A DNA stretch of 64,000 nucleotides from Aromatoleum toluclasticum ATCC 700605 (GTDB lineage: Bacteria; Pseudomonadota; Gammaproteobacteria; Burkholderiales; Rhodocyclaceae), in assembly GCF_000378245.1 (NCBI RefSeq), contig NZ_KB899491.1:496001-560000 (forward strand), given 5' to 3'. The notes beneath the pieces are model-generated. The model searched no databases, was not told where the DNA came from, and saw only the letters and a program-made list of their open reading frames with translations. Below, piece by piece: positions 27,365 to 41,439 of this stretch (positions within the stretch are counted from its first letter, which is position 1; each line of letters begins with the position of its first letter). Both the position numbers and the translations under genes were made by a program.

Positions 27365-27428
27365 GATTTTCTCCGTGGGGGTTGTCCGGGTTGGTGAGCG
27401 TATTTCACCACCCCCATCCCCGTGGGTC

Positions 27429-27444
27429 TGTAACCTTGGTTACA
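27429..27444. promoter_or_regulatory. Palindromic operator TGTAACC-TT-GGTTACA
   Basis: Perfect 7-bp arms with a 2-bp centre, located 65-80 nt upstream of the DUF2892 ATG and just after the Crp/Fnr stop codon. Its symmetry and length match Crp/Fnr-family half-site pairs. A second inverted repeat, TGGTGA-N7-TCACCA, lies at 27392-27410. Regulator assignment to the adjacent gene is inference. Confidence 0.6.
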
Positions 27445-27462
27445 CAGCCCCGAGCCCGCGGT

Positions 27463-28140
27463 TCAGCCCTGGCGTCCGTCGCTTGCGATGCGGCGCAGGC
27501 CCGCGGGGTCGAGGATCTCGATCTGTTCGCGCGACAGCTTCACCAGGCCTTGCGCGGCAAAGCCCTTCAGCAGGCGGCTGACGAACTCGCGCACGCTGCC
27601 GAGTTCGTCGGCGAGATGCTGGTGCGTGGTGTGCAGGAGGCGGCCCTTGCCGAGCAGCAGGCCGGCAAGGCGCTGGTCGAGGCGGTGGAAGGCGACTTCC
27701 TCGATGAGCTGCATCAGGTCGGCGATGCGCTCGGCGAAGAGGTGGAACACGAAGCTGCGGAAGGCCGGTTCGCCGAGCAGCGCGTCGAAGTCGGACTTGG
27801 GCAGCATCAGCAGCACGGTGTCGGTCTCGGCGACGCCGCGGGCGTTGTAGTCCTCGTGTCCGAGCAGGCAGGACGAGGAGATGATGCAGGTCTCGCCCGG
27901 CGTGACGCGGTAGAGCGGCAGCTCGCGGCCGTTCGGTGCGCATTTGACGACGCGCACCGAGCCTTCGACGACGAAGGGAAAGCCTTCGCAGGCCTGGCGG
28001 TCGTCGAACAGCAGCGTTCCGGCCGGCACGCGCGCCCAGCGGCCCGCCGCGAGCAGGCGCAGGCGCGCGGCGTCGGGCAGCGCTGCGATCATCGGGTAGC
28101 GTGCAGCCGCGAGGGCGGGATCCGGGGTCGGCGTGCTCAT
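27463..28140 (-). CDS. Crp/Fnr-family transcriptional regulator
   Basis: 225 residues: N-terminal cyclic-nucleotide-binding-like fold (about 20-140), dimer helix, and winged helix-turn-helix (about 165-215; HLADELGSVREFVSRLLKGF is the HTH region). The sensor domain carries cysteines at 51, 67, 85 and 91, the last two in GETCIISSSC, but no Fnr-type N-terminal iron-sulfur cluster motif. Its ligand is unknown; a thiol or redox signal is possible. The ATG at 28140 follows the xthA stop by 23 nt, so it may share a transcript with xthA; upstream open frame lies inside xthA and is discarded. It probably controls the small DUF2892 gene downstream. Confidence 0.88.
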   Translation of the reverse strand: MSTPTPDPALAAARYPMIAALPDAARLRLLAAGRWARVPAGTLLFDDRQACEGFPFVVEGSVRVVKCAPNGRELPLYRVTPGETCIISSSCLLGHEDYNARGVAETDTVLLMLPKSDFDALLGEPAFRSFVFHLFAERIADLMQLIEEVAFHRLDQRLAGLLLGKGRLLHTTHQHLADELGSVREFVSRLLKGFAAQGLVKLSREQIEILDPAGLRRIASDGRQG

Positions 28141-28163
28141 GGGGGACGGCGCTTCGGGGGCCA

Positions 28164-28925
28164 CTACAGGGCCAGCTCGACGACGACCGGCGCGTGGTCG
28201 GAGGGGCGCTCGAGCTTGCGCGGCGTCTTGTCGATCACGCAGCTGCGGCAGCTGGCGCGCAGCGCCTGCGAGACCAGGATGTGGTCGATGCGCAGGCCGA
28301 AGTTGCGGCGGAATGCCCCCATGCGGTAGTCCCACCACGAAAAGCTCTTCTCCGGCTGTTCGAAGAGGCGGAATGCGTCGGCGAAGCCCAGTTCGATCAG
28401 CGCGGCGAAGGCGGCGCGTTCGGGCTGCGAGACGTGGATCTCGTCCTTCCAGTCCGGGTGGGCGTCGCGGTCCTCGGGGGCGATGTTGAAGTCGCCGGCG
28501 AGCACGAGCCGTTCATGGCTCTTCAGCTCCTCGCGCAGCCAGTCGGTGAGGGCGGCAAGCCAGCGCAGCTTGTATTCGAACTTGTCGGAACCGACGGCCT
28601 GGCCGTTGGGGAAGTAGGCGCTGACGACGCGCACGCCGCCGATGGTCGCGGCGATGATGCGCTTCTGCTCGTCGGCGAAGCCGGGGATGTCGCGGATCGT
28701 CGCATCCGGGGCCTGCGGGCTGAGGATAGCGACGCCGTTGTAGGTCTTCTGGCCGTTGAACACCGCCCGGTAGCCGGCCGCTTCGAGCTCGGCGGCGGGG
28801 AAGACCTTGTCCTCCATCTTGAGCTCCTGCAGGCACAGGGCGTCGGGCTGGTTGGCGGCCAGCCAGTCGAGCACGTGGGGCAGGCGGACCTTGAGCGAGT
28901 TGACGTTCCAGGTGGCGATTTTCAT
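28164..28925 (-). CDS. xthA: Exodeoxyribonuclease III
   Basis: AP endonuclease and 3'-5' exonuclease for base-excision repair, 253 residues. Family motifs: KIATWNVNSLKVRLPHVL at the N-terminus, LQELKMED with the metal-binding glutamate, GDFNIAPEDRD, and the terminal catalytic histidine in SDHAPVV. The ATG at 28925 gives the standard N-terminus. A short inverted repeat, GCCTGCA-A-TGCAGGC (28968-28982), lies about 45 nt upstream. Confidence 0.96.
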   Translation of the reverse strand: MKIATWNVNSLKVRLPHVLDWLAANQPDALCLQELKMEDKVFPAAELEAAGYRAVFNGQKTYNGVAILSPQAPDATIRDIPGFADEQKRIIAATIGGVRVVSAYFPNGQAVGSDKFEYKLRWLAALTDWLREELKSHERLVLAGDFNIAPEDRDAHPDWKDEIHVSQPERAAFAALIELGFADAFRLFEQPEKSFSWWDYRMGAFRRNFGLRIDHILVSQALRASCRSCVIDKTPRKLERPSDHAPVVVELAL

Positions 28926-29027
28926 GGGGATGACGGTGTGTTGGCGCGGGGCGCGCGAGGACGCGGCGCCTGCAATGCAGGCATTCTGCCCGAGCTCGCC
29001 GACTCTGTGGGGAAACGCGCCGCGCGC

Positions 29028-29570
29028 TCAGCCGTGGCCTTGTGCGCCGCAGTCGGCGGCGAGCCAGCGCGCGTCGGTGTCGACCTGCAGGTTGCCGTTG
29101 CGGGAAGTCATGTTGACGCGGGTCGTGAAGTGTTCCGGCGACTGGATGCGGGCTTCGAAGTCGCCGCTTGCGTCCGGCCGGGTGCAGTTGAGGTGGCCGC
29201 GCACCGTGGCGTCGGCCTTCACGACCTTGTCGAGGGTGCAGTTGCCTTCGGTCTTGCCCGAATAGACGGTGTCGGACTTTGCCTGTTCGGGCGTGATGCA
29301 GCTGCGCGCGCTGCCGTCGTTGCCGAGGCTGACGCCGCGCGCGGCCATCTGTTGCTCGACCATGCGGCGCATGTCCGGCGGCAGGCTGCGGATGTACTGC
29401 TGGGCCTGCGCCATCTGCGAGGACATGTCGGGCAGGCCGCCGATGTTGAGCCGGGTCGAGCGGAATTCCCACAGGCCGGGCCGGATGCCGGCCGGCTGGG
29501 CCGCGCAGGCGATGCCCGTGGCGGCAAGGCCGAGGATGAGGAGGAGGGGGCGATAGCGGCTGCGGATCAT
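29028..29570 (-). CDS. Exported DUF3617-family protein
   Basis: 180 residues: a signal peptide (about 1-23, ending CAA) followed by the DUF3617 pattern: GLWEFRSTR near the mature N-terminus, a central DMSSQMAQAQQYI helix, then C-I-T-P-E-Q-A, NCTLDKV and LNCTRP with paired cysteines likely to form disulfides. The family is periplasmic and of unknown role. It stands alone between xthA and the priming transferase gene, 97 nt from the latter. Confidence 0.82.
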   Translation of the reverse strand: MIRSRYRPLLLILGLAATGIACAAQPAGIRPGLWEFRSTRLNIGGLPDMSSQMAQAQQYIRSLPPDMRRMVEQQMAARGVSLGNDGSARSCITPEQAKSDTVYSGKTEGNCTLDKVVKADATVRGHLNCTRPDASGDFEARIQSPEHFTTRVNMTSRNGNLQVDTDARWLAADCGAQGHG

Positions 29571-29669
29571 GATCGGGCGTCTCGAAACGGCGGTTTGACG
29601 GCAGGCGGCGCGGGAGGTTCCTGCGCGTGCGACGGCCGGGATTGGGCGCCGCGTGCACGCTCGTGCGCC

Positions 29670-31073
29670 TCAGTAGGCGTTGGGGTCGCGCACGACCATC
29701 AGGGCGGTGCGGGCGATGATCCACAGGTCCAGGCCGAGCGACCAGTTGCGCAGGTAGTCGAGATCGTACTCGATGCGCTTCTCCATCTTGTCAACCGTCT
29801 CGGTTTCGCCGCGGTAGCCATTGACCTGCGCCCAGCCGGTGATCCCCGGCTTGACCTTGTGGCGGATCATGTAGCCCTTGATGAGCTTGCGGTAGGCCTC
29901 GTTGTGCGCCACCGCGTGGGGCCGCGGGCCGACGATGCTCATGCGCCCCTGCAGCACGTTGATGAACTGCGGCAGCTCGTCGAGCGAGGTGCGGCGGATG
30001 AAGGCGCCGAAGGGGGTGATGCGGCTGTCGTTGCGCGTGGCCTGGCGCACGGCAGCGCCATCGTCGCAGACCGTCATCGAGCGGAACTTGTAGACCAGGA
30101 TCTCGCGGCCGTCGAGGCCGTAGCGCCGCTGCTTGAAGACGACCGGCCCGGGGGAGGAGAGCTTGACGCCGACGGCGAGGGCGATCAGCACGGGGGTGAG
30201 GAGCAGCAGGATGAGCAGCGCGAGAATGAAGTCGGAGCTGCGCTTGACGACGTTGTTGAGGCCGGTGAAGGGGGTGTCGCACACGGCCACGACGGCCATG
30301 CCGCCGACGTTGTCGACCCGCCCCTGGATGAGGTCGGTGACGAAGATGTCGGGGACGAAGTAGATCGACGCGGTGGTGTCCTTGAGGTCGTCGAGCAGGG
30401 CGAGGATGCGTGGCTGCGGGGCCATCGGCAGCGCCAGGTAGATGGCCTCGACGCGGCGGCGCTTGACGAACTCGGCGAGGCCGGAGAGCGGGCCGAGTAC
30501 CGGCGCCGGTATGCCGCCGCTTTCGGGCAGTCGTGAGCGCGGGCGATCGTCGAAGAAGCCCACGACGCGGGTGCCGAGGTAGGGGTGGTCGCGGAATTCG
30601 CGCGCGAGCTTCAGGCCGATGTCGTTCACGCCGGCGACGACGGCGATGCGCTGGTTGTCGCCGATCGCCAGCCATGTCGGCAGCGCCTGCCGGGCCACGG
30701 CATGGACCGCAACCAGCGCGAGCGGGGTGGTGGCGACCCACGTCACCAGCATCGTGTGCGGGAAGTAGTGGAGGTAGCCGCTCGCGTAGCCGAAGGCGCC
30801 CGTGGCCGCCACGAACAGCAGCCAGTTGGTGGCGACCTTGCGCATCATGGTCCGCGCCGATTCGTGCAGGCCGACATTTCCGGGAAACGTCAGCGCGAAG
30901 GAGAGTGCGCCCAGGATCATGTACGGCGGGCTCATCAGGCGTTCGCCATGCCAGGCGGCGCAGGCATACAAGACGGCGACGACGGTGAGCGGATCGATGA
31001 ATGCCTCGATCGCGCCACTCAGCGTGAAACTGCCGCGCAACAGGCTTCCTTGTCTATCCAGGGCTGCAATCAT
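29670..31073 (-). CDS. wcaJ: Undecaprenyl-phosphate sugar phosphotransferase (WcaJ/EpsB-type priming enzyme)
   Basis: Starts the exopolysaccharide repeat unit by moving a sugar-1-phosphate (usually glucose) to undecaprenyl phosphate at the inner membrane. 467 residues: four hydrophobic segments in the first 135 residues, a CoA-binding-like Rossmann domain (about 140-260), one hydrophobic helix near 280-300, and the catalytic bacterial sugar-transferase domain (LSSPGPVVFKQRRYGLDG, YKFRSM, SLDELPQFINVLQG, MSIVGPRP, VKPGITGWAQVNGYRG). Transcribed away from the eps cluster across a 411-nt AT-rich gap, which probably holds both promoters. Glucose specificity is family-based inference. Confidence 0.93.
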   Translation of the reverse strand: MIAALDRQGSLLRGSFTLSGAIEAFIDPLTVVAVLYACAAWHGERLMSPPYMILGALSFALTFPGNVGLHESARTMMRKVATNWLLFVAATGAFGYASGYLHYFPHTMLVTWVATTPLALVAVHAVARQALPTWLAIGDNQRIAVVAGVNDIGLKLAREFRDHPYLGTRVVGFFDDRPRSRLPESGGIPAPVLGPLSGLAEFVKRRRVEAIYLALPMAPQPRILALLDDLKDTTASIYFVPDIFVTDLIQGRVDNVGGMAVVAVCDTPFTGLNNVVKRSSDFILALLILLLLTPVLIALAVGVKLSSPGPVVFKQRRYGLDGREILVYKFRSMTVCDDGAAVRQATRNDSRITPFGAFIRRTSLDELPQFINVLQGRMSIVGPRPHAVAHNEAYRKLIKGYMIRHKVKPGITGWAQVNGYRGETETVDKMEKRIEYDLDYLRNWSLGLDLWIIARTALMVVRDPNAY

Positions 31074-31484
31074 GAATTCACGGAATTGAATTTGTGCGTT
31101 GCAAAACGCCGTCCGTTCGCAGGATTCTGTGCCGCAACGGAGGCGCGTGCGCGTTTGTCGGAGGGGCCGGGGGAGATCTTACGGAACGGACCGGCAAGTG
31201 CCCGCGCGAGTGTAAAAAAACATATTTGTTCAAATGTTCGCGGGCAGGCTCTCGTCAGTATGACGTTCGTATCGTGACATGCCAGGTGGCCGCGTCGCGG
31301 CGTAAAAAAGTTGTTGCAGATCATATTGTTCGTTCCATTAACCACGATATCGAAGAGGTTTAATGGCTGGTTGTGGCAACTTCCGCACTTCGCGGATTTG
31401 GCGGCGACCTGCCGCTCGCGCACGTTTTAATATGCTTACAAGGTTTTTTCCGTGGCGATGTGATTCGACTACGCTTATGCCGGA
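31074..31484. other. AT-rich divergent regulatory gap of the exopolysaccharide locus
   Basis: A 411-nt region without a credible gene, clearly richer in A+T than its surroundings, between the divergent priming transferase and the EpsL-like gene. It contains an inverted repeat ATTTG-TT-CAAAT (31224-31235) and -10-like TAATAT (31428-31433) and TATGCT (31431-31436) on the plus strand, but no matching -35. A short minus-strand ORF (31070-31423) overlaps the transferase start and was judged spurious. I could not place a sigma-54 site here. Confidence 0.6.
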
Positions 31485-32702
31485 ATGAATGGCGCAACGG
31501 ATATGAAACCTTCCAAATCCATTATGTGCGCGCTTGCCCTGTCATCGGCCATGTTGCACGAAGGGGCTGCCGCCGATGAAGGAGACGCGCTGAATTTCAG
31601 CGTCAGCCAGTCGATCCGATACGAAAGCAATCTTTTTCGGCTCGACGATGGCGAGCGCGCGCCCGAAAACAAGGCGCACGATACGGTGAGCGAGACGGGC
31701 GTCGGAATGAAATTCGATCGGCGCTACGGGCGCCAGCGCTTTCTCGCCGATTTGAATCTCGTGAGTGCGCGTTATGCAATTCACAATGATCTCGATCATG
31801 ACCGGCCTGACGCCGGACTTGCCTGGGACTGGCAATTGGGTGACCGATGGAGTGGCGAACTGGGTCATGCGTATCGCGAGACGCTGACGCCCTTCGACGA
31901 GGCCGGCGGTACCGAGCGCAACATGAATGCCTACACCCGGAGCCATGTGAGCGCCGACTTCTGGTGGCACCCCCGCTGGGCCGTCGGTGCAGGGTTTGCG
32001 CACGCGAGAAGCCGCTTCGATCGCGATGATGCGGACCTGGCGGAGTTCGACGCGGACACGGTCGACCTGAATCTGACCTACCGTCCGCCGACGGGCAACC
32101 GCGCGGTGCTGACGCTGCGCGATACGGACGGCGAGTACGTGAATCGCCCCGCCGCGCCGGGCTCGATCCGCGACTACCGGCAGCAGGAGGTACGCCTCGG
32201 CGGAGAGTGGCGTTTGTCAGGCGCGACGCGGGTTTCGGGTTTCATCGGGCGAACCCGTGTGGAATATCGGCTGGCGCCGGAGCGCGACTTCCGGGGCACC
32301 GTCGGACGCGTCGGACTGGTCTGGGACACGACGGCGAAGACGTCGGTGGACCTGAGCGTGCGGCGCGAGATCGGTGCCCAGCAGGACCTTGCCGCGAATT
32401 ACGCCGTGACCGAGGCGGTGCGGCTGGCCCCGAAGTGGAACGTGACCGAGAAGGTGAGCCTCGGTGCCGGGCTCGAGTGGCGCCGGCGCGACTATCGCGG
32501 CGATCCCGAGCTGGTGCGGACAGGGGGGACGCGCGAGAAGCCGACCGACAGCAGCTACCGCTATGGCCTGCATGCGGAATACAGGCCGCAGCGCGCGCTG
32601 AGTTTTGCATTCAGCGTGCAGCGCCAGGAGCGTGACGGTTCGCGCTCTCTGGGGGGGTATTCCGCCAATACGGCGGATTTGTCGATGCGATTCCGCTTTT
32701 GA
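31485..32702 (+). CDS. EpsL-like outer-membrane beta-barrel of the exopolysaccharide cluster
   Basis: 405 residues: signal peptide (cleavage near EGAAA-D), then alternating aromatic/hydrophilic strands ending in F (MRFRF), the usual C-terminal barrel signature. An early SQSIRYESNLFRL block matches the start of EpsL-type proteins of exosortase-linked exopolysaccharide loci, which are thought to form or assist the outer-membrane exit. A second in-frame ATG at 31503 (MKPSKS) gives a more typical signal peptide and may be the true start; neither has a strong ribosome site. First gene of the plus-strand arm, with a 320-nt gap before the next. Confidence 0.78.
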   Translation: MNGATDMKPSKSIMCALALSSAMLHEGAAADEGDALNFSVSQSIRYESNLFRLDDGERAPENKAHDTVSETGVGMKFDRRYGRQRFLADLNLVSARYAIHNDLDHDRPDAGLAWDWQLGDRWSGELGHAYRETLTPFDEAGGTERNMNAYTRSHVSADFWWHPRWAVGAGFAHARSRFDRDDADLAEFDADTVDLNLTYRPPTGNRAVLTLRDTDGEYVNRPAAPGSIRDYRQQEVRLGGEWRLSGATRVSGFIGRTRVEYRLAPERDFRGTVGRVGLVWDTTAKTSVDLSVRREIGAQQDLAANYAVTEAVRLAPKWNVTEKVSLGAGLEWRRRDYRGDPELVRTGGTREKPTDSSYRYGLHAEYRPQRALSFAFSVQRQERDGSRSLGGYSANTADLSMRFRF

Positions 32703-33022
32703 AAATGACCCGGGTTGCCGATGCATTATCGGGAATGAGCGGGGCACCGGCGCGAGCCGTTCGCGCACGTTCGGGGTGCGGCGGCGCACGAAACAGGTGC
32801 GGCAATTGAAAGAATAAAATTCATGATCGTTACAGTCGGATTTCGAATTGAAAGCGAATATTCGGTTTATTGACGGTGTTTTCGCAAGTCGTTATGGTGC
32901 GCAGCAATAAAGCCGATTCGCTGAATCAACAGGTTTGAATAAAGCGGTCGTCGTGGGCAAACGACGACACGATTAATGCAGGTTTTTGCGAGCGCCTGCA
33001 TTCCAATAGAGAGGTGGTGCCC
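32703..33022. promoter_or_regulatory. Gap with repeated AATTGAAAG boxes and a two-hairpin leader
   Basis: A 320-nt AT-rich region before the small exported gene. AATTGAAAG occurs at 32804-32812 and 32846-32854, exactly 42 bp (four helical turns) apart. Close to the start codon lie two hairpins: GTCGTCG/CGACGAC (32947-32953, 32962-32968) and AATGCAGG/CCTGCATT (32975-32982, 32995-33002), the second ending 20 nt before the ATG. This suggests a separate promoter and a structured 5' leader. Inference from pattern only. Confidence 0.5.
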
Positions 33023-33475
33023 ATGTCCATGATCAATGGAAAAATGGTCGGTTTTGCCGTGCTCCTGTCCGGCTGTATTTCCGCCGCCCATGCCGACACG
33101 GTGACGCTGTCGGGCAATGGGGTGACGATCCGCTACGAGGACAAGGCGTCTGCCGTGACGGGTGCGCCGTCGCTGATCGCGACCGGGCTGATGACGTCGC
33201 CGGCGAGCGTGGCCGGTGCCCGCTTCGATTCCACTGCGGCGGTGCGGGAACCCGCGTCGGGCGCGGCTTTCGCGGATGTTGCAAGCCTTGGGGGTGAAGC
33301 GACGCCGCGTTCGTTTGCAGAAGGCGTTGCCCTGCAGTTCTCGCTTGGTGGAGCCGGCGCGGGCGAGGGTGGATTCGAATCGCTGGTGTTGGCCGGTTTG
33401 GCACTTTTCGCGCTGATTGTGCGCCAGCGGATCTCTGCGATGTCGCGCTCGCGGCATTCGCCGATATTCCAATGA
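33023..33475 (+). CDS. Small exported protein with sorting-signal-like C-terminus (PEP-CTERM/GlyGly-CTERM-like)
   Basis: 150 residues, family not recognised. The N-terminus is a signal peptide; both a lipobox (LLSGC, C18) and a signal-peptidase-I site (AAHA before D) are visible, so the cleavage class is uncertain. The body is rich in Ala, Ser, Gly and Thr with no further cysteines. The C-terminus has the three-part form of a sorting signal: a Gly-rich stretch (GAGAGEGGFES), one hydrophobic helix (LVLAGLALFALIV), then basic residues (RQR, later SRSRH). It lacks the PEP motif and the tail after the helix is longer than usual. The ATG at 33023 has AGAGGTGG upstream; two GTGs just before are less likely. 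It sits between the EpsL-like gene and epsD. Confidence 0.7.
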   Translation: MSMINGKMVGFAVLLSGCISAAHADTVTLSGNGVTIRYEDKASAVTGAPSLIATGLMTSPASVAGARFDSTAAVREPASGAAFADVASLGGEATPRSFAEGVALQFSLGGAGAGEGGFESLVLAGLALFALIVRQRISAMSRSRHSPIFQ

Positions 33476-33555
33476 ATCTTCAATTGCGGCGATTGCGTGG
33501 CGCATTGCGCCATGAATCGTCGATTTGAATCTTGAGCCAGCATCCGGTCAGGTCG

Positions 33556-34449
33556 ATGTCTTCGACGGCACGCATTGCATTTCCTGTTGTCCTGCTTTCC
33601 GCCTTTTTCCTCAATGCCTGCAGCAAGGGCGAGGCGGAAGGGAAGCCCGCGTTCGAGGTTATTGCGAAGGTGAACGAGCAGGCAATCCAGGCGAATGAAC
33701 TCAATTCGATCGCGGCGCTCGCCTCTTCGCAGGGGACGCCGGAAGAGGGCGCGCTCGAGCGCCTGATCGACCAGGAGCTGATGGTGCAGCAGGCGCGCGA
33801 GCGCAGGCTGGATCGCGACCCGCGCGTGTTGCAGTCCTTCGAGGCGGCGCAGCGGGAGATCCTGGCGCGGGCCTACCTCGAGCAGGTGACCGGGCAGGTT
33901 GCGCCGCCGAGCGACGAGGAGATCGCAGCCTTCCATGCGGCCAATCCCGAGCTGTTCGCGCGGCGCCGCATCTACAGCCTGCAGGAGCTGGAGATCCGCC
34001 TGCCGCCCGAGCGTTTCGAGGAGCTCGAGCGTGTGAGTGCACGCGCGGCGGGTCTGCATGAGGTGAAGGAGTGGCTCACGCGCGAGGGGATCGAGTTCCA
34101 GCTCGCCGCTGCCGTGAAGCCGGCCGAGCAGCTGCCGCTGGAGAGCCTGAAGGGCTTTGCGCGCATGCGGGACGGGCAGATGGTGCTGAGCCGGACGCCG
34201 GCGGGTGCCCTTCTGGTTCATCTCGTCTCCGCCCGTGCGCAGCCGCTCGACGCGGGGGCTGCGCGGCCGATGATCGAGCGTTACCTGGCGAATGCACGCA
34301 AGAGCGCGCTGGCGAAAGCCGAGCTGGAGCGCCTGCGTGATGGCGCACGCATCGAGTATGCGCCGCTGGCGCCGAGCCGGCCCGGGGCGGAGCCCGGGCT
34401 TGCCGAAGCGGAGACGCCACAGGCGCTGCCCGCGCCCGAAACCCATTGA
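33556..34449 (+). CDS. epsD: EpsD-family lipoprotein, SurA/parvulin-like peptidyl-prolyl isomerase
   Basis: 297 residues. A lipoprotein signal ends in FFLNAC (cysteine about 23), followed by a SurA_N-like helical part (AKVNEQAIQANEL, LIDQELMVQQARERRLDRDP) and a weak parvulin-type region. EpsD proteins are named from the Methylobacillus methanolan cluster and are always beside the export genes; they may help fold or place the export machinery. The ATG at 33556 gives the lipoprotein signal; a TTG at 33532 keeps the frame but has no ribosome site. Followed by epsE after 16 nt. Confidence 0.85.
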   Translation: MSSTARIAFPVVLLSAFFLNACSKGEAEGKPAFEVIAKVNEQAIQANELNSIAALASSQGTPEEGALERLIDQELMVQQARERRLDRDPRVLQSFEAAQREILARAYLEQVTGQVAPPSDEEIAAFHAANPELFARRRIYSLQELEIRLPPERFEELERVSARAAGLHEVKEWLTREGIEFQLAAAVKPAEQLPLESLKGFARMRDGQMVLSRTPAGALLVHLVSARAQPLDAGAARPMIERYLANARKSALAKAELERLRDGARIEYAPLAPSRPGAEPGLAEAETPQALPAPETH

Positions 34450-34465
34450 TCGAGGATCACCGTCC

Positions 34466-35347
34466 ATGCCGTTGTCGAGACCGTTCCGAATTGCCCTGTT
34501 GATGTGCCTGTCCTGCGTGCCTGCCTGGGCCGCGGCGCAGATGCCACCGGCGGCTGCGCCGCAACCGGTTGTGCCGCCGCCGGTTGCGGTGGCCGCGCCC
34601 GCTCCGGCAGCCGACGAAGCGCGCGAGTACGTGCTCGGGCCGGGGGACATCGTCCGCATCAGCGTGTTCCAGAATCCCGACCTGACGACCGAAGGGCGCG
34701 TGTCGGAAACCGGTGCGCTGACCTTCCCGCTGATCGGCAGCGTGCCGCTGGGCGGGCGCACGGTGTCGGCCGCCGAGGCCCTGATCGCGGAGCGCCTGCG
34801 CCAGGGGGGATTCGTGCTGCAGCCGCAGGTGACCGTGCTGCCGGTGCAGATCCGCGGCAACCAGGTGGCGGTGCTGGGGCATGTGAACAAGCCCGGGCGT
34901 TATCCGCTGGATACCTTCAACGTGCGCGTGACCGACATGCTCGCGAACGCAGGCGGGGTTGCCGCGGGCGGCGATGACGTGATCGTGCTCGTGGGCACGC
35001 GCGACGGCCAGCGCGTCCGCAAGGAGCTGGATCTGCCGGCGCTGTTCCAGCGCGGCGATGGCGATGCGGACACGATGCTGTCGCCGGGCGACGTGATCTA
35101 TGTCCGGCGCGCGGACGTGTTCTACATCTACGGCGAGGTGCAGAAGCCGGGCTCGTTCCGTCTCGAACGCAACATGACGGTGATGCAGGCGCTGGCGACG
35201 GGCGGCGGGCCGACGCTGCGCGGCACGGTGCGCGGGTTGCGCATCCACCGTCGCGGTGGCGACGGCAAGGTGGCGGTGATCGAGCCCACGCTGGAAGACC
35301 GCCTGCGCCCCGACGACATCATCTACGTGAAGGAAAGCCTGTTCTGA
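34466..35347 (+). CDS. epsE: Polysaccharide export outer-membrane protein (Wza-like, EpsE)
   Basis: Forms the periplasmic and outer-membrane exit channel for the polymer. 293 residues: signal peptide ending near AAAQ (about 25), a Pro/Ala-rich linker, the Poly_export domain beginning YVLGPGDIVRISVFQNPDL, and SLBB-type repeats (VAVLGHVNKPGRYPL and FYIYGEVQKPGSFRL). It ends YVKESLF, as is common for EpsE. No lipobox is obvious, unlike Wza. The ATG at 34466 has GAGGA upstream; the longer open frame reaches into epsD. Followed by epsF after 13 nt. Confidence 0.93.
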   Translation: MPLSRPFRIALLMCLSCVPAWAAAQMPPAAAPQPVVPPPVAVAAPAPAADEAREYVLGPGDIVRISVFQNPDLTTEGRVSETGALTFPLIGSVPLGGRTVSAAEALIAERLRQGGFVLQPQVTVLPVQIRGNQVAVLGHVNKPGRYPLDTFNVRVTDMLANAGGVAAGGDDVIVLVGTRDGQRVRKELDLPALFQRGDGDADTMLSPGDVIYVRRADVFYIYGEVQKPGSFRLERNMTVMQALATGGGPTLRGTVRGLRIHRRGGDGKVAVIEPTLEDRLRPDDIIYVKESLF

Positions 35348-35360
35348 GGCGGGGCTAATC

Positions 35361-36758
35361 ATGAATCCTGGACAATTCCTGCGCATCCTGCGTGCGCGCT
35401 TCGGACTGGTGTGCGCCGTCGTGCTGGTCGTCACGGCGGCCGCGGTGGCGGTGAGTCTCGTGCTGCCGCAGAAGTACCTCGCCGAGACGGCGCTGGTCAT
35501 CGACGCGAAGTCTTCCGACCCGATCGCGGGCGGGGTGATGCCGTCGCAGCTGATCGCGAACCATATCGCCACGCAGGTCGACATCATCGACTCGGATCGG
35601 GTCGCGTTGCGCGTCGTGGACGCGGCCGGGCTCGCCGCAATGCCGCAGTTCCAGCAGCAATGGCAGGAGGCTACCGGCGGGGCAGGCGACATCCGCGAGT
35701 GGATCGCCGACGTGCTGCTTTCGCGCCTGGACGTGACGCCGGGGCGCGAGAGCAATGTCGTGCGCATCCGCTACACGGCCTCGCAGCCTGAGTTTGCGGC
35801 GATGATCGCCAACGCCTTCGCGCAGGCCTACATGGAGATCGGGCTGGAGCTGAAGGTGGAGCCCGCGCGCCAGTACGCGCAGTGGTTCGATGAGCGCACG
35901 CACGGCCTGCGCGAGGAGCTGGAGGCGGCGCAGAAGCGCCTGTCCGACTACCAGCAGAAATACGGCATCGTTTCGGCCGACGGGCGGCTGGACGTCGAGA
36001 CGGCGCGGCTCGCGGAGCTGTCGACGCAGCTCGTGCAGGTGCAGGGGCAGCGGGCCGAGAGCCGGTCGCGCTTCAGCCAGTCCGGTTCGGCCGAGTCCCT
36101 GCCCGAGGTCACGCAGAACCCGCTGATCGCGAACCTGAAGGGCGAGCTGGCGCGGCGCGAGGGCGAACGCCAGCAGATGCTCGGCCGGCTGGGGCCGAAC
36201 CACCCCGAGGTCGGCAAGCTTGCCGCGGTGATCGATTCGCTGCGGGCGCGCATCGGCGCCGAGACGCAGCGCATCGCCGCGTCGCTGGGCACTTCGAGCC
36301 GCATGAGCGCGGCGCGCGAGGCGGAGGTGGCCGCGGCGGTCGCGGCGCAGAAGGCGCGTGTGATGCAGCTGCAGGCGCATCGCGACCAGATCGCGGTGCT
36401 GCAGCGCGACGTCGAGAGCGCGCAGAAGGCCTATGACCAGGTCGCGCAGCGCCTGTCCGCGACGAACCTGGAGAGCCAGGCGCAGCAGATCAACGTGGCG
36501 GTGCTGACCCCCGCGACGGCGCCGTTGTGGCCGTCGGGCCCGCGCCTGCTGATCAAGCTCGTGCTGGCGCTGGTCGTGGGCGTGGTGCTGGGCGTGGGCA
36601 GCGCCCTGCTGATCGAACTGATGGACCGGCGTGTGCGCGGCGAGGACGACCTCGACGGGCTGCCGGGCATGCCGGTGCTCGGCAGCGTGCCGGGCCGGAG
36701 CGGGACCCGCCGGGTATCCCGGGGGCGAGTGTCGAATCGAATTGCCGGAGCTTATTGA
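35361..36758 (+). CDS. epsF: Chain-length determinant protein EpsF (Wzz/PCP family)
   Basis: Inner-membrane polysaccharide co-polymerase that sets chain length and links synthesis to export. 465 residues: N-terminal Wzz region with TM1 (about 14-34) and a following TALVIDAKSSDPI stretch, long periplasmic coiled coil (about 165-380), TM2 (about 395-415), then a short cytosolic tail with LPGMPVLGSVPG. There is no kinase domain; the cytosolic ATPase is the separate EpsG next door, 4 nt downstream. Confidence 0.92.
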   Translation: MNPGQFLRILRARFGLVCAVVLVVTAAAVAVSLVLPQKYLAETALVIDAKSSDPIAGGVMPSQLIANHIATQVDIIDSDRVALRVVDAAGLAAMPQFQQQWQEATGGAGDIREWIADVLLSRLDVTPGRESNVVRIRYTASQPEFAAMIANAFAQAYMEIGLELKVEPARQYAQWFDERTHGLREELEAAQKRLSDYQQKYGIVSADGRLDVETARLAELSTQLVQVQGQRAESRSRFSQSGSAESLPEVTQNPLIANLKGELARREGERQQMLGRLGPNHPEVGKLAAVIDSLRARIGAETQRIAASLGTSSRMSAAREAEVAAAVAAQKARVMQLQAHRDQIAVLQRDVESAQKAYDQVAQRLSATNLESQAQQINVAVLTPATAPLWPSGPRLLIKLVLALVVGVVLGVGSALLIELMDRRVRGEDDLDGLPGMPVLGSVPGRSGTRRVSRGRVSNRIAGAY

Positions 36759-36762
36759 TCCC

Positions 36763-37632
36763 ATGAATGCACCCCTGAGCAGCACCCTGGATCCCAAGGG
36801 CGAACAGGCGATCGGCGCGATCCTGATGGCGGCCGGACGCCTGCGCGTGGACGAGAACGAACGCATCGTGCGCCTGCAGCGCGACAAGGGCCTGCGCTTC
36901 GGCGAGGCGGCGGTCGAGCTGGGCCTCGCGAGCGAGCACGACATCCGCTACGCGATGGCGCGGCAGTTCGAATACGACTGCTTGCAGGCGGACGAGAGCA
37001 AGGTGTCGAGCAGCGTGGTCGCCGCGTTCGACCCGTTCTCGGTGCAGGTGGAGGCGCTGCGCGCGCTGCGCAGCCAGCTGATGCTGCGCTGGTTCGACCC
37101 GACCGCGGGGCGCAAGCTGCTGGCGGTGGTGAGCGCCGCACGCGGGGAGGGGCGCTCGTGGATGGCGGCGAACCTCGGTGTCGCGTTCTCGCAGCTGGGC
37201 TTGCGCACCCTCGTGGTGGATGCCGACCTGCGCCGGCCTTCGCAGCATGCGCTGTTCGGCCTCGACAACCGCAGCGGACTCTCCGCGCTGCTGCTCGGCC
37301 GCCACGCTCCGGACGCGATCCGGCGCGTGGCCGGGCTGCGTTCGCTGGCGGTGCTGCCCGCCGGGGTGGTGCCGCCGAACCCTCAGGAGCTGCTGTCGCG
37401 CCCCTTGCTGGGCCAGCTGCTGCAGCAGTACACGACGGCCTTCGATGTCGTGATCCTCGATACCGCCGCGGGCGAGCGCTGCGCCGACGGCGTGATGGTC
37501 GCGGCGCGGGCGCGTGCGGCGCTGATGGTCGCCCGTCGCAACGCGAGCCGGATGGCGGCGGTGCGCCGCTACGCGGAGCGCCTGCGCGAGTCCGGCGTGG
37601 GCCTGGCCGGCTCGGTGATGAACGGGGACTGA
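36763..37632 (+). CDS. epsG: EpsG: BY-kinase-like ATPase with MshE-N-like head
   Basis: 289 residues. The C-terminal part is a bacterial tyrosine-kinase P-loop ATPase that partners EpsF: Walker A region SAARGEGRS (about 124-132, with Arg where most families have Lys; I recall this as usual in EpsG), Walker A' VVDADLRRP (151-159) and Walker B VVILDTA (229-235). There is no C-terminal tyrosine cluster: the tail ends GLAGSVMNGD. Residues about 15-72 resemble the paired helical motifs of the type II secretion/MshE N-domain (IGAILMAAGRL, then RFGEAAVELGLASEHDIRYA). The ATG at 36763 follows the epsF stop by 4 nt. Confidence 0.88.
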   Translation: MNAPLSSTLDPKGEQAIGAILMAAGRLRVDENERIVRLQRDKGLRFGEAAVELGLASEHDIRYAMARQFEYDCLQADESKVSSSVVAAFDPFSVQVEALRALRSQLMLRWFDPTAGRKLLAVVSAARGEGRSWMAANLGVAFSQLGLRTLVVDADLRRPSQHALFGLDNRSGLSALLLGRHAPDAIRRVAGLRSLAVLPAGVVPPNPQELLSRPLLGQLLQQYTTAFDVVILDTAAGERCADGVMVAARARAALMVARRNASRMAAVRRYAERLRESGVGLAGSVMNGD

Positions 37633-37635
37633 GCC

Positions 37636-38598
37636 GTGAGCCGCCTGACCGACGACCCCGGGATCGCCGCTGCGCAGCGGTGGTTGCGCCCTGCGCCCGC
37701 GCCGCTCGTGAGCGTGGTGATCCCGTCGTACAACCGCGGGCACGCGATCGGCGCGTGCATCGCCAGCGTGCTGGCGCAGACGCTGGAGGATTTCGAGATC
37801 GTCGTCGTGGATGACGCCTCGACCGACGACACGCGCGAGCGCGTTGCGGCGATCGCCGATCCGCGCGTGCGCTACGTCGCGCACGAGACGAACCGCGGCG
37901 GGGCGGCGGCGCGCAACACCGGCGTGCGGGCGGCGACGGGCGACTTCATCGCCTTCCTCGACAGCGACGACAGCTGGTCGCCGCGCAAGCTCGAGCGGCA
38001 GATCGCGCTGCTGGGCGAGCGCGGGCCGGAGTACGGCCTCGCCTACACGTGGTTCATCGGCCGCGACAAGGACGGCCGCGAAGTGTCGCGCTCGGACCGC
38101 AGCCTGGACGGCCGCGTCGCGGAGGCGCTGCTGGTCGCGAACCATGTCGGCACCTTCTCCAGCATCGTCGTGCGGCGCGACGTGTTCGAGCACGTCGGCG
38201 GGCTCGACGAGACGCTGCGCAGCTGCCAGGACTGGGACCTGTCGATCCGCCTGAGCCGCGTGACGAAGATCTGCTGCGTCGAGGATTACCTGGTTTCGTA
38301 CTTCCACAACGGCGCGGACAAGCACCGCATTTCGTCGAATCCCGCCTCGCTCATCCAGGGCCACCGGCGCATGTTGGAGAAGTTTTCCGACGACTATGCG
38401 CGCCTGCCGCGCAGGCAGGCGGCGCAGGCGTTGCGGGGCTTCCTCGACGTGTTCGCGGGCGCCGGGTCGTTCGAGGACGTGCTGCGCCTCGGGCGCCGCA
38501 TGGCCGCGACGACGCGCCGCCCGGAGGCGCTCCTGCAGTGCGGCGTCGCGCTGGTGCGTGCGGCGAAGCGCCGCATGACGGGGCGCTTCGGGTACTGA
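37636..38598 (+). CDS. Family 2 glycosyltransferase
   Basis: Adds a sugar to the lipid-linked repeat unit at the cytosolic face. 320 residues. GT-A fold: SVVIPSYNRG (about 25-34), VVDDASTDDT, FLDSDDSW with the metal-binding DxD-like motif, and a downstream SCQDWDLSIRL acceptor-site region. No membrane helix. Starts with GTG at 37636, 3 nt after epsG. Donor and linkage cannot be inferred. Confidence 0.88.
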   Translation: MSRLTDDPGIAAAQRWLRPAPAPLVSVVIPSYNRGHAIGACIASVLAQTLEDFEIVVVDDASTDDTRERVAAIADPRVRYVAHETNRGGAAARNTGVRAATGDFIAFLDSDDSWSPRKLERQIALLGERGPEYGLAYTWFIGRDKDGREVSRSDRSLDGRVAEALLVANHVGTFSSIVVRRDVFEHVGGLDETLRSCQDWDLSIRLSRVTKICCVEDYLVSYFHNGADKHRISSNPASLIQGHRRMLEKFSDDYARLPRRQAAQALRGFLDVFAGAGSFEDVLRLGRRMAATTRRPEALLQCGVALVRAAKRRMTGRFGY

Positions 38599-38599
38599 C

Positions 38600-40003
38600 G
38601 TGGGCTACGCGGTGCAGTCGCCTTCTCCTGTCCTGCTCACCGGTGGCGCGCTGATCGTCGCGCTGGCGGTCGGCATGGCGCTGCCGCTCTACGCGGAGGC
38701 GATGTCCGGGAGCGCCGTGCGCCTGCTGGCCCTGCCGGCGCTGCTGGTGCTCGCGATCCTGTTCCTGTACGACCGGGTCCTGCTGCTTGCGCTGGTCCTG
38801 CTGTTCCGCGCGGCGGGTGACCTCGTGTTCGAGAGCACCCGCGTGGAGCTGGGCGGGCTCGCGATCGGCTTCGGCGGGCTGGTGAATGCCTTCGTGATCC
38901 TGATCGCGGTGCTGCTGGTCGCGGCGCGGCCGGACCGCTTCCCGCGGCGCATCGCCGCACCGTGGGCGGCCTTCCTGATCGCTGCGCTGATCGGAGTGGG
39001 GATTGCGCCCAATCTCGGCGAAGCGGTGCGCGGCTACCTCGGCCTGCTGTCCTATTTCGCGGTTTTCGTCAGCGCCTTTTACTTTGTGAAGGGCGAGGGC
39101 GATTTCAAGGTGTGCGTGAAGCTCGTGCTGCTGTCCTCGCTGCTGCCGGCTGCCTACGGCTTGGTGGAACTCGGCCTGCATGGGGCGGCCGGTGGCCTGC
39201 ACGCCTTCCGGCTGAAGAGCACCTTCGCCCATCCCAACATCTTCGCGTTCTACCTCACGCTGGTGCTGCTGGTGGCGCTGTACGCGCTGAAGAGCCCCGC
39301 GGTGGTGCTGAGGCCGCTGCGCCGCACGCTGCTTACGGCCTACGTGCCGCTGCTGCTGGGGCTGCTGCTGCTGACGCAGACGCGCAGCGCCTGGGTCGCC
39401 TGTTTCGCGATCTTCGCGCTGTATGCGTTGCTGTTCGAGCGCCGCTACCTCATCTATCTGATGCTCGCGCCGGCGCTCGCGCTGCTCGTGCCGGGCGTGC
39501 GCGAACGCGTGCTGGAACTGGGCAGCGGCAACGAGATCGTGCAGTACGCGAAGCTCAATTCCTTCGCGTGGCGCCTGCAGATCTGGGAGTACGGCCTGCG
39601 CTGGATCCGTCCCGATCACCTGCCGCTCGGCTACGGCCTGGGTGCGTTCAAGCACTTCGCGCCGGTGTTCTTCCCCTACTCGGGCGGGGTCAATTTCGGC
39701 GCGCACAACATCTACGTGCAGATCCTGTTCGAACTCGGCGCGCTCGGGCTCGCGGCCTTCGCGTGGCTGTTCGCACGCCTGTTCGGGACGCTGCGGCGCA
39801 TGGCAGTGGTCGACCGGTTGGGCGCCTTCGTCGCGATCGCGCTGGTGGTCGAGTACCTGATCATTTCGGCGTCGGACAACGTCCTCGCCTATCTCGCCTT
39901 CAACTGGTACGTCTGGTTCGTGCTCGGCGCAGCGTGTGCCGTCGCGCTGAGCCGGGCGGAAACCGGCAAGGGCACGACGCACATGGAAGGAGACAGGGCA
40001 TGA
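38600..40003 (+). CDS. O-antigen ligase/polymerase-type membrane protein (Wzy/WaaL family)
   Basis: 467 residues, about 10-12 hydrophobic helices, with a large periplasmic loop near residues 320-370 holding an NSFAWRLQIWEYGL block and an HNIYVQILFELGALGL block typical of the O-Ag ligase (PF04932-type) family. By context it is the likely Wzy polymerase that joins repeat units in the periplasm. GTG start at 38600, one base after the previous stop. The stop overlaps the next start (ATGA). Confidence 0.85.
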   Translation: MGYAVQSPSPVLLTGGALIVALAVGMALPLYAEAMSGSAVRLLALPALLVLAILFLYDRVLLLALVLLFRAAGDLVFESTRVELGGLAIGFGGLVNAFVILIAVLLVAARPDRFPRRIAAPWAAFLIAALIGVGIAPNLGEAVRGYLGLLSYFAVFVSAFYFVKGEGDFKVCVKLVLLSSLLPAAYGLVELGLHGAAGGLHAFRLKSTFAHPNIFAFYLTLVLLVALYALKSPAVVLRPLRRTLLTAYVPLLLGLLLLTQTRSAWVACFAIFALYALLFERRYLIYLMLAPALALLVPGVRERVLELGSGNEIVQYAKLNSFAWRLQIWEYGLRWIRPDHLPLGYGLGAFKHFAPVFFPYSGGVNFGAHNIYVQILFELGALGLAAFAWLFARLFGTLRRMAVVDRLGAFVAIALVVEYLIISASDNVLAYLAFNWYVWFVLGAACAVALSRAETGKGTTHMEGDRA

Positions 40004-41439
40004 GGGAAATCATCCGCGGGCGCACGCCCGTGCGCCGGGCCTGTTCAGCCTGGCTGTTCGCGTGCGGCGCCGCGCTGGCGGTCGTCGGCGGCAACGCGGG
40101 GGCGCAATCCAACGGCCAGGCGTGGGGCAGCTACGAGACGCCCTTCGCCGCGACGTCGGCGTGGAACAGCCGCCCGGTCGGGCCGCGGTTCGGCGACTTC
40201 GTCATCCCGAAGTCGGACTACTACCCGTCGATCGCCGAAGGCGCGTGGTCGACCGGGGTGTTCCTCGCCGGCGCCGACGATGCGCCGGTGACGGTGGTCG
40301 GGCTGCCGAACAGCAAGGGGGTGTGGGATCCGGACGCCGCCGTGTATCGCACGGTCGCGATTCCGCGCTGGCCGGAAGGGGTGATTCCGGCCAGCGCCGC
40401 GGACGGCCATGCCGACATCGTCGACCCGCTCGCCGGCATCGTCCACTCCTTCTACAAGCTGCGCCAGTCGGAGGGGCAGTGGATGGCCGCGCAGTACGCC
40501 TGGACGCGCCTCGACGGCCGCGGCTGGGGCGACCCGGCGCACTACTTCCAGGGCGCGCGCGCGGCCGCGGTGCCGACCTCGGGCGGTCTCATGCGCAAGC
40601 ACGAGATCGATGACGGGCGGCCGCTCTACCGCCATGCGCTGGCGATGTCCTTGACCTACAACGCGCTGTCGCCGAACCCGACCTACGTCTTCCCGGCCAC
40701 CTCGGCCGACCGCGACGCCGCAACGACCAACACCGGCCAGATTCCCGAGGGCGCGCTGGTGATGCTGCCGCCGGAGTTCGACGTGCAGACCATCCGCACC
40801 GCGGCCGTACGCAAGGTCGCGGAGACGCTGAAGACGTATGGCGCCTACATCGTCGACCGCAACCGCGGCACGCCCTATGTGATCTACGTCGAGAACGGTT
40901 CGGGCTTCAGCCTGCATCGCGGCGGCTGGAACACCGTCGCCGCGGCCGACCTCGAGCGCATCCGCATGGGCTTGCGGCAGGTCGTGTCGGTGGAGGGCTG
41001 GGTGGATGGCAGCGAGCGCCCGGTCGAGCCCGATGCGAACCTCAACCTGCTCTCCATGCGCGGCCCCTGGACGCGCCAGAGCGGCACGGCGTCGGGCAGC
41101 TTCGAGACCTGGGAGCAGGCCGTCGTGTTCGCGCCGGCCGAGGGCACGACGGTGATGGTGAACAGCAGCGGCCGCAGCCTGCATCCGGTCGCGTGGGCGC
41201 TGCCGGTCGCCGGGCAGGGCTATCGGCTGCGCGCGATCGCGACCGGCGGTGCGCGCCTGCGCTTGCAGCTGCGCGACAAGGCGAGCGGCGCGACGCTGTT
41301 CGACAGCAAGGAGCTCAACAACGACGAAGTGGCCGATTTCGTGTGGCCTGCCGGCACGGTGACGCCGGTGGTGAGCGCGATCAGCGGTGCGGGGGGCGCC
41401 TCGACGGTGCGCGGCGAACTGCTGAGGACCGGCCAATGA
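40000..41439 (+). CDS. Secreted protein of unknown family in the exopolysaccharide locus
   Basis: 479 residues, function not recognised. A basic N-terminus and hydrophobic core give a signal peptide ending near GNAGA-Q (about 36); the rest (about 440 residues) is soluble and rich in aromatic residues and glycine, with motifs SAWNSRPVGPRFGDF, VIPKSDYYPS, DIVDPLAGIVHSFYKLR and RHALAMSLTYN. Proteins of similar wording occur as uncharacterised secreted proteins in other bacteria. The position among polymerase, acyltransferase and glycosyltransferase genes suggests a periplasmic or secreted enzyme that trims, cleaves or binds the polymer. The ATG at 40000 overlaps the previous stop; the long upstream frame is a shadow of the polymerase gene. 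Confidence 0.75.
   Translation: MREIIRGRTPVRRACSAWLFACGAALAVVGGNAGAQSNGQAWGSYETPFAATSAWNSRPVGPRFGDFVIPKSDYYPSIAEGAWSTGVFLAGADDAPVTVVGLPNSKGVWDPDAAVYRTVAIPRWPEGVIPASAADGHADIVDPLAGIVHSFYKLRQSEGQWMAAQYAWTRLDGRGWGDPAHYFQGARAAAVPTSGGLMRKHEIDDGRPLYRHALAMSLTYNALSPNPTYVFPATSADRDAATTNTGQIPEGALVMLPPEFDVQTIRTAAVRKVAETLKTYGAYIVDRNRGTPYVIYVENGSGFSLHRGGWNTVAAADLERIRMGLRQVVSVEGWVDGSERPVEPDANLNLLSMRGPWTRQSGTASGSFETWEQAVVFAPAEGTTVMVNSSGRSLHPVAWALPVAGQGYRLRAIATGGARLRLQLRDKASGATLFDSKELNNDEVADFVWPAGTVTPVVSAISGAGGASTVRGELLRTGQ

Follow-up and report, generated by a model that had tools for sequence, protein, structure and literature searches.

A probable orphaned exosortase substrate in an XrtB-less eps locus of Aromatoleum toluclasticum

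Exosortases are sorting enzymes that normally trim and release their substrate proteins. In the available part of the description of PEP-CTERM proteins (Haft 2006, PMC1569441), 87% of these proteins have fewer than ten residues beyond the basic cluster, with a median of three, and the very few with dramatically longer tails are considered possibly non-functional. The same part records two PEP-CTERM proteins but no EpsH in Chlorobium tepidum. The protein described here resembles that case, as given there, in that substrates persist without the enzyme; it differs in that the PEP-CTERM domain of the Chlorobium tepidum proteins is still recognised, whereas the window protein has lost PEP. GlyGly-CTERM proteins, the substrates of rhombosortase, have zero to five residues beyond the helix according to the available part of PMC3237569. 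Among the matches listed from the open-licence PMC literature, none described slot proteins without PEP at loci that lack XrtB.

The window, by which we mean the whole stretch of 64,000 nucleotides that was analysed, contains at 33023..33475 on the + strand an open reading frame whose translation comprises 150 residues, as had been predicted. It lies between EpsL upstream and EpsD, EpsE, EpsF and EpsG downstream, each of which exceeds its NCBIfam cut-off, and the NCBIfam model for EpsL carries the name XrtB/PEP-CTERM-associated. The locus is made up as follows.

31485..32702, + strand: EpsL (TIGR03014; 337 bits, cut-off 275)
32870..32898, + strand: sigma-70-like promoter TTGACG-17-TATGGT upstream of the subject gene (pattern search and alignment)
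33008..33015, + strand: Shine-Dalgarno-like AGAGAGGT preceding the ATG (GAGAGGT common to five loci)
33023..33475, + strand: subject gene, encoding an exported 150-aa protein with a CTERM-like tail without PEP (orthologues in nine genomes)
33532..34449, + strand: EpsD (TIGR02925, over the NCBIfam cut-off)
34292..35347, + strand: EpsE, longest open reading frame (TIGR03028, over the NCBIfam cut-off)
35361..36758, + strand: EpsF (TIGR03017, over the NCBIfam cut-off)
36631..37632, + strand: EpsG, longest open reading frame (TIGR03029, over the NCBIfam cut-off)
37636..38598, + strand: family 2 glycosyltransferase, occupying the position of XrtB (family match, locus comparison)
38600..40003, + strand: Wzy_C / O-antigen ligase-like protein (family match, locus comparison)

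The profile match of EpsE starts only at residue 112 of its open reading frame, so the true start of EpsE is probably later. The promoter-like sequence was the only such site in 31300-34600 and, with 0.6 expected in shuffled sequences, is no evidence alone; in five aligned loci TTGAC was invariant and the second hexamer was largely conserved. Together with the GAGAGGT before the ATG, this conserved site makes it probable that the epsDEFG unit begins with the subject gene. Immediately upstream of the promoter-like site, GAATTGAAAGCGA (32845-32857) is nearly invariant in five loci and may be a regulator site. The surroundings also hold frames without family matches. One, of 463 aa (40045-41436, - strand), follows Wzy in the orientation opposite to the eps genes, has no Pfam or NCBIfam match, and shows identities of 60-71% across six related Aromatoleum-type loci and of 46-47% in L072/L073. 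The others, at 27382-28329 and 28101-30536 (both +), lie upstream of the eps locus and show 64-80% and 65-75% identity, respectively, over part of their length, in L040-L044.

The subject protein can be divided into the parts listed below, the signal peptide and a middle that seems free of helices having been judged by eye and hydropathy only.

33023..33094, + strand: signal peptide, residues 1-24, with a conserved A-x-A end; C18 is not conserved (alignment, read by eye)
33095..33217, + strand: conserved N-terminal block, residues 25-65, homologous to the slot PEP-CTERM proteins of XrtB loci (alignment; pN/pS 0.28)
33218..33307, + strand: variable Ala/Gly linker, residues 66-95 (pN/pS 0.75)
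33311..33349, + strand: conserved SFAEGVALQFSLG block ahead of the tail, TFADRVALRFSL in the other genus (alignment; pN/pS 0.29 for residues 96-110)
33362..33370, + strand: GEG, residues 114-116, standing where PEP would be when the tail is aligned without gaps (register by eye)
33380..33421, + strand: C-terminal hydrophobic helix, about residues 120-133 (translation; 33380-33430 gives the highest PF07589 score in the own genome, below threshold)
33422..33430, + strand: basic end RQR, residues 134-136 (invariant in six aligned sequences)
33431..33472, + strand: 14-residue extension beyond the basic residues, ending SPIFQ (translation, alignment)

All elements of the original prediction (open reading frame, signal peptide, Gly stretch, hydrophobic helix, basic residues and no PEP) are present at 33023-33475. 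The Gly-containing stretch reads GAGAGEGG, and the conserved A-x-A at the end of the signal peptide is formed by A22 and A24. Besides this motif, the alignment shows conservation in the greater part of residues 26-65, in SFA-[ED]-G-x-x-x-x-FSLG, in the helix and in RQR. The pN/pS values, which are crude, being uncorrected proportions from 15 pairs of six sequences, were 0.39 for the tail (residues 111-136) and 0.59 for residues 137-150 in addition to those listed. Neither Pfam nor NCBIfam (at E up to 10) gave a match for the window protein. NCBIfam matches of orthologues to the HadA/HadB dehydratases (best E 0.0024, in at most two of six members) were dismissed as chance because nothing else agrees with them. 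AlphaFold models of two sequences, that of the window and that of L022, were poor (mean pLDDT 38.6).

Orthologues were found in seven of the 61 genomes searched, all from the own genus (G000, which is the own genome, G002, G003, G009, G014, G015 and G016), while 24 of the 61 gave any match at E up to 0.1. The G003 orthologue is split across two contig ends, and locus L022 of Aromatoleum tolulyticum, which also possesses XrtB and a fused exosortase, carries an orthologue. When 395 genomes of the family were searched with a profile, 38 gave some match (E up to 0.01), and two carriers from another genus, G465 and G435, were added at about 1e-17. The total is nine genomes in two genera, and the start ATG at 33023 is retained in five full-length orthologues.

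Six XrtB-containing loci of the genus (in G001, G002, G003, G004, G013 and G016, with EpsL cut by the contig end in the last) have the order EpsL, two PEP-CTERM genes, EpsD, EpsE, EpsF, EpsG and XrtB. The order in window-type loci is EpsL, the subject gene, EpsD, EpsE, EpsF, EpsG, glycosyltransferase and Wzy, so that EpsG is followed by XrtB in the former and by the glycosyltransferase in the window locus. Two genuine PEP-CTERM genes fill the epsL-epsD slot in all six XrtB-containing loci read in the genus, in agreement with the earlier statement that the gene sits where exosortase substrates often lie. An hhalign comparison of six orthologues with a set of six slot PEP-CTERM proteins, five from the first slot and one, that of G013, from the second, gave an E value of 3.5e-8 over 58 columns, within residues 6-63 only. 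The PEP-CTERM plan that had been proposed for the protein holds. Family-wide, 17 nonorthologous N-terminal matches with locus sequence and an open frame were read (matches with internal stops, matches in later parts only and a few N-terminal ones were left out); 11 end in a PEP-CTERM tail, six in a PEA-CTERM tail and none otherwise. By both the hhalign result and these matches, the protein shares common descent with PEP-CTERM proteins outside the tail. With the first-slot PEP-CTERM protein of XrtB loci (228 aa, L033:6666-7352, G004) it has in common the epsL-epsD position, the signal peptide, the N-terminal block T..L.G.G......D......G.P.L, the C-terminal helix and the basic end. It differs from that protein in being PEP-less, about 80 residues shorter and longer at the C-terminal end, and in belonging to a locus without XrtB. 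In slot-type homologues of genus code g6 (L056, L057, L058, L060, L061 and L063), VPEADTY or IPEAEIY replaces PEP and the rest of the CTERM tail is retained; this PEA tail is a natural variant that the local exosortase may accept, and G021 of g6 has two exosortases.

No exosortase (PF09721) was detected over the cut-off of 25.7 bits in the own genome, which gave one match of 11.8 bits; what had been noted for the locus, that it lacks a visible exosortase, holds for the genome as well. Among the carriers, matches over the cut-off numbered zero in G000 and G015, one each in G009, G014, G435 and G465, and two each in G002, G003 and G016. In the four carriers with one match, the exosortase and EpsI matches fall in open frames of identical length and place, which indicates an exosortase-EpsI fusion, and in the three with two matches XrtB is at a locus other than the window-type one. 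Processing of the tail is therefore conceivable in these seven carriers, and this counts against the explanation that we favor. EpsI was not found over the cut-off in G000 or G015, both of which carry the subject protein. The tree of EpsE, EpsF and EpsG comprised 68 loci (one from the window, 11 from the genus, one from G021, 49 taken out of 78 EpsF places and six from the profile search, five loci without EpsF being left out); it is a quick tree (LG+G4, midpoint root) with long-branch warnings elsewhere in it. The eight XrtB-less loci of this protein family form one clade (SH-aLRT 100) amid XrtB loci. XrtB is missing from 17 of the 68 loci, a label that requires at least six changes on the tree. 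Since the XrtB-less clade is nested among XrtB loci, the tree points to loss and not gain, and XrtB was probably lost in the window lineage and elsewhere too.

When the tail is placed by eye without gaps, GEGGFESLVLAGLALFALIVRQR lies over PEPEAYLMLLTGLGMVGVMARRR with GEG opposite PEP, and 6 of the 23 positions are identical; MAFFT instead placed PEP in a gap. The PEP motif is absent from all eight full-length orthologues. Its position holds GEG (four of six aligned sequences), GDR or LES, and AEA or AET in the other genus, and in the by-eye register an acidic residue (E or D) is retained at one place in all eight. The window tail has neither of the two prolines but still shows the helix, the basic end and a single acidic residue; only G117 of the Gly patch is invariant among the six aligned sequences. 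As in PEP-CTERM proteins, a hydrophobic helix followed by basic residues stands near the C terminus. Fourteen residues follow RQR in the window protein, an end beyond the usual PEP-CTERM range of fewer than ten though not dramatically so, and the two other-genus sequences end five residues after RRR. PF07589 gave no match over its cut-off of 20.7 in the own genome, where the window tail was the best of four sub-threshold matches (12.1 bits; next, 11.0). Among eight carriers, the PF07589 match list includes the tail in five (first among sub-cut-off matches in G000, G014, G465 and G435, second in G009) and does not include it in G015, G016 and G002; the absolute sub-cut-off scores mean little because 13 of 14 control genomes also give such matches. 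Taken with the synteny and the by-eye register, these weak scores suggest that the window tail itself may be a worn PEP-CTERM tail. It shares with the PEP-CTERM sorting domain (TIGR02595 / PF07589) the three-part plan and the rank of best sub-threshold match of its genome, but the motif is gone, the score is below the cut-off and the genome has no exosortase over the cut-off. As the motif, score, enzyme and tail length all fail, we class the window protein as a derived relative and not as a member of the PEP-CTERM proteins. It is possible to read this as an ordinary single-pass exported protein that came to resemble PEP-CTERM proteins by convergence, given that the tail homology alone is not significant. 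However, the N-terminal relatives are PEP- or PEA-CTERM proteins in all 17 cases read, the epsL-epsD slot is the same and the locus descends from XrtB loci, and we regard convergence as unlikely.

The original prediction had also raised a new class of sorting substrate, in which an unrecognised membrane protease would cut the tail at the Gly/Glu stretch. Constraint on the tail and the acidic residue at one place, in the register set by eye, are what such a class might show. However, the residues flanking the acidic one vary from GEG to AET without conservation of any replacement for PEP, an exosortase over the cut-off is missing from two of the nine carriers, and searches for these three enzyme families gave no exosortase, EpsI or rhombosortase over the cut-off in the own genome, which makes a new class an improbable reading. 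Homologues with the same tail do occur near eps genes, as that prediction anticipated, and the tail looks, from its sequence, like the plain anchor that it had set against a sorting signal.

A decaying gene whose function is gone could account for a protein of 150 aa where its relatives have about 228, and for the fast linker. However, the gene is conserved beyond chance: it is present in nine genomes of two genera and open in the eight that hold it on one contig, the crude pN/pS is 0.28-0.39 in the three conserved blocks against 0.75 in the linker, and the promoter-like and ribosome-binding sequences are conserved. Decay is for these reasons distinctly improbable. The GlyGly-CTERM plan was recovered in part, with Gly before the helix and basic residues after it in the window protein, but cleavage by rhombosortase is very unlikely and was rejected: GG is not conserved among aligned orthologues, the helix is followed by 17 residues, against at most five in GlyGly-CTERM proteins (PMC3237569, available part), no such model turned up when six orthologues were compared with NCBIfam (E up to 10), and TIGR03902 had no match over its 84-bit cut-off in seven genomes (sub-cut-off in six of the seven, best 32.9 bits, as also in all 14 control genomes). 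The proposed lipobox LLSGC is in the window sequence, but a second, lipoprotein anchor is hardly credible and was rejected because Cys18 is not conserved, being found in the window protein only and missing from five other full-length orthologues, the G003 fragment and both other-genus sequences (G014 has a Cys at residue 14, outside any lipobox).

We consider it likely that the protein is an orphaned exosortase substrate, a descendant of PEP-CTERM proteins that was left without XrtB and persists in the periplasm under a permanent membrane anchor, probably aiding polymer assembly or export. At the level of sequence this reading is carried by the N-terminal homology, the synteny, an XrtB-less locus in an XrtB-type clade, the absence of PEP and the conservation of the gene. 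The ancestor would have been a PEP-CTERM protein encoded between epsL and epsD of an XrtB-type exopolysaccharide locus. XrtB would then have dropped out in the ancestor of the window locus while the substrate gene was retained, and the substrate may have been shortened from about 228 to 150 residues, losing both PEP prolines and extending its tail but keeping its helix, its basic residues and the acidic residue. Signal peptidase I would remove the signal peptide, leaving a domain of about 90 residues facing the periplasm, and the uncut C-terminal helix would anchor the protein in the inner membrane (type I) with its basic end in the cytoplasm. A signal-peptide-cut, C-terminally anchored state of this kind is proposed in the available part of Haft 2006 (PMC1569441) as the step before EpsH acts. 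The same part reports that disruption of EpsH in Methylobacillus left methanolan production unaffected, so loss of XrtB need not stop the polymer. A membrane-anchored helper, as the original prediction allowed, is the likeliest present state; judged by position and conservation, the anchored protein would probably assist EpsD, EpsF, EpsE and EpsL in polymer assembly or export.

The association between XrtB and the PEP motif was examined across the 68 loci with a tail filter that covered open reading frames within 9 kb upstream of EpsF. The 51 loci with XrtB comprised 22 with a PEP tail, one with PEA only and 28 with no tail protein found; either the filter overlooks some of them or their genes are located elsewhere. 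The 17 XrtB-less loci comprised one with PEP, nine with a PEP-less tail and seven with none found, namely, L100, L109, L125, L127, L128, L130 and L042, the last of which is PEP-less, was missed by the filter and was set by hand for the tree-corrected test. Loss of XrtB and loss of PEP are associated by a raw Fisher test that ignores kinship (p 2.5e-6); the tree-corrected comparison yields four independent pairs, of which two agree, none oppose and two are without difference (sign test p 0.5), a number much too small for significance. Because most XrtB-less loci with a tail protein belong to one clade, the correlation is a pattern and not proof.

Beside the window clade, G047 and genus code g28 are candidate independent cases of the same route. 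In G047 (L105) the tail TEGGDRDFYGMMLASLGMMALIAHRRR is PEP-less and there is no exosortase over the cut-off. In g28 (L101, L135-L145), where synteny rests on L101, the slot-protein tail is PEP-less and like KPPQKPARWAMLLIALSLLLYQIRRRP; of the 11 g28 genomes in which the L101 slot protein has a relative, none has an exosortase over the cut-off (sub-cut-off matches in 4). Matches to that protein were found in 17 of 195 genomes, and none of the 15 tails read from g28 and g208 contains PEP, although three of four g208 genomes have an exosortase. The L101 slot protein had no NCBIfam match at E up to 1, and G043 had no PF07589 match at all. The loci L135-L145 contain a conserved slot family ending DDLLFYFLKDF...QKP.RWA.LL-helix-RRRPMRTSIGF, a second candidate orphan family. 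A counter-case is G149 (L129), in which the slot protein ends MPEPTD-helix-RRKR and no exosortase is over the cut-off; this may reflect recent loss of the exosortase or a gap in the 350-contig assembly. We tentatively suggest that there could be a recurrent route, in which the exosortase is lost and the substrate becomes a permanently anchored part of the polymer machinery, sheds its PEP prolines and often gains a cytoplasmic end. If so, such substrates would have a polymer-related job apart from their release.

Genomes that lack the enzyme and keep the substrate would amount to a natural experiment, suggesting that the periplasmic part is worth keeping without exosortase cleavage. Orphan tails may also separate the residues that only the enzyme needs, namely, both prolines, from those that serve the anchor, namely, the helix, the basic end and the acidic residue outside. 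They carry a warning as well, in that a PEP-less CTERM-like tail need not imply an unknown sortase.
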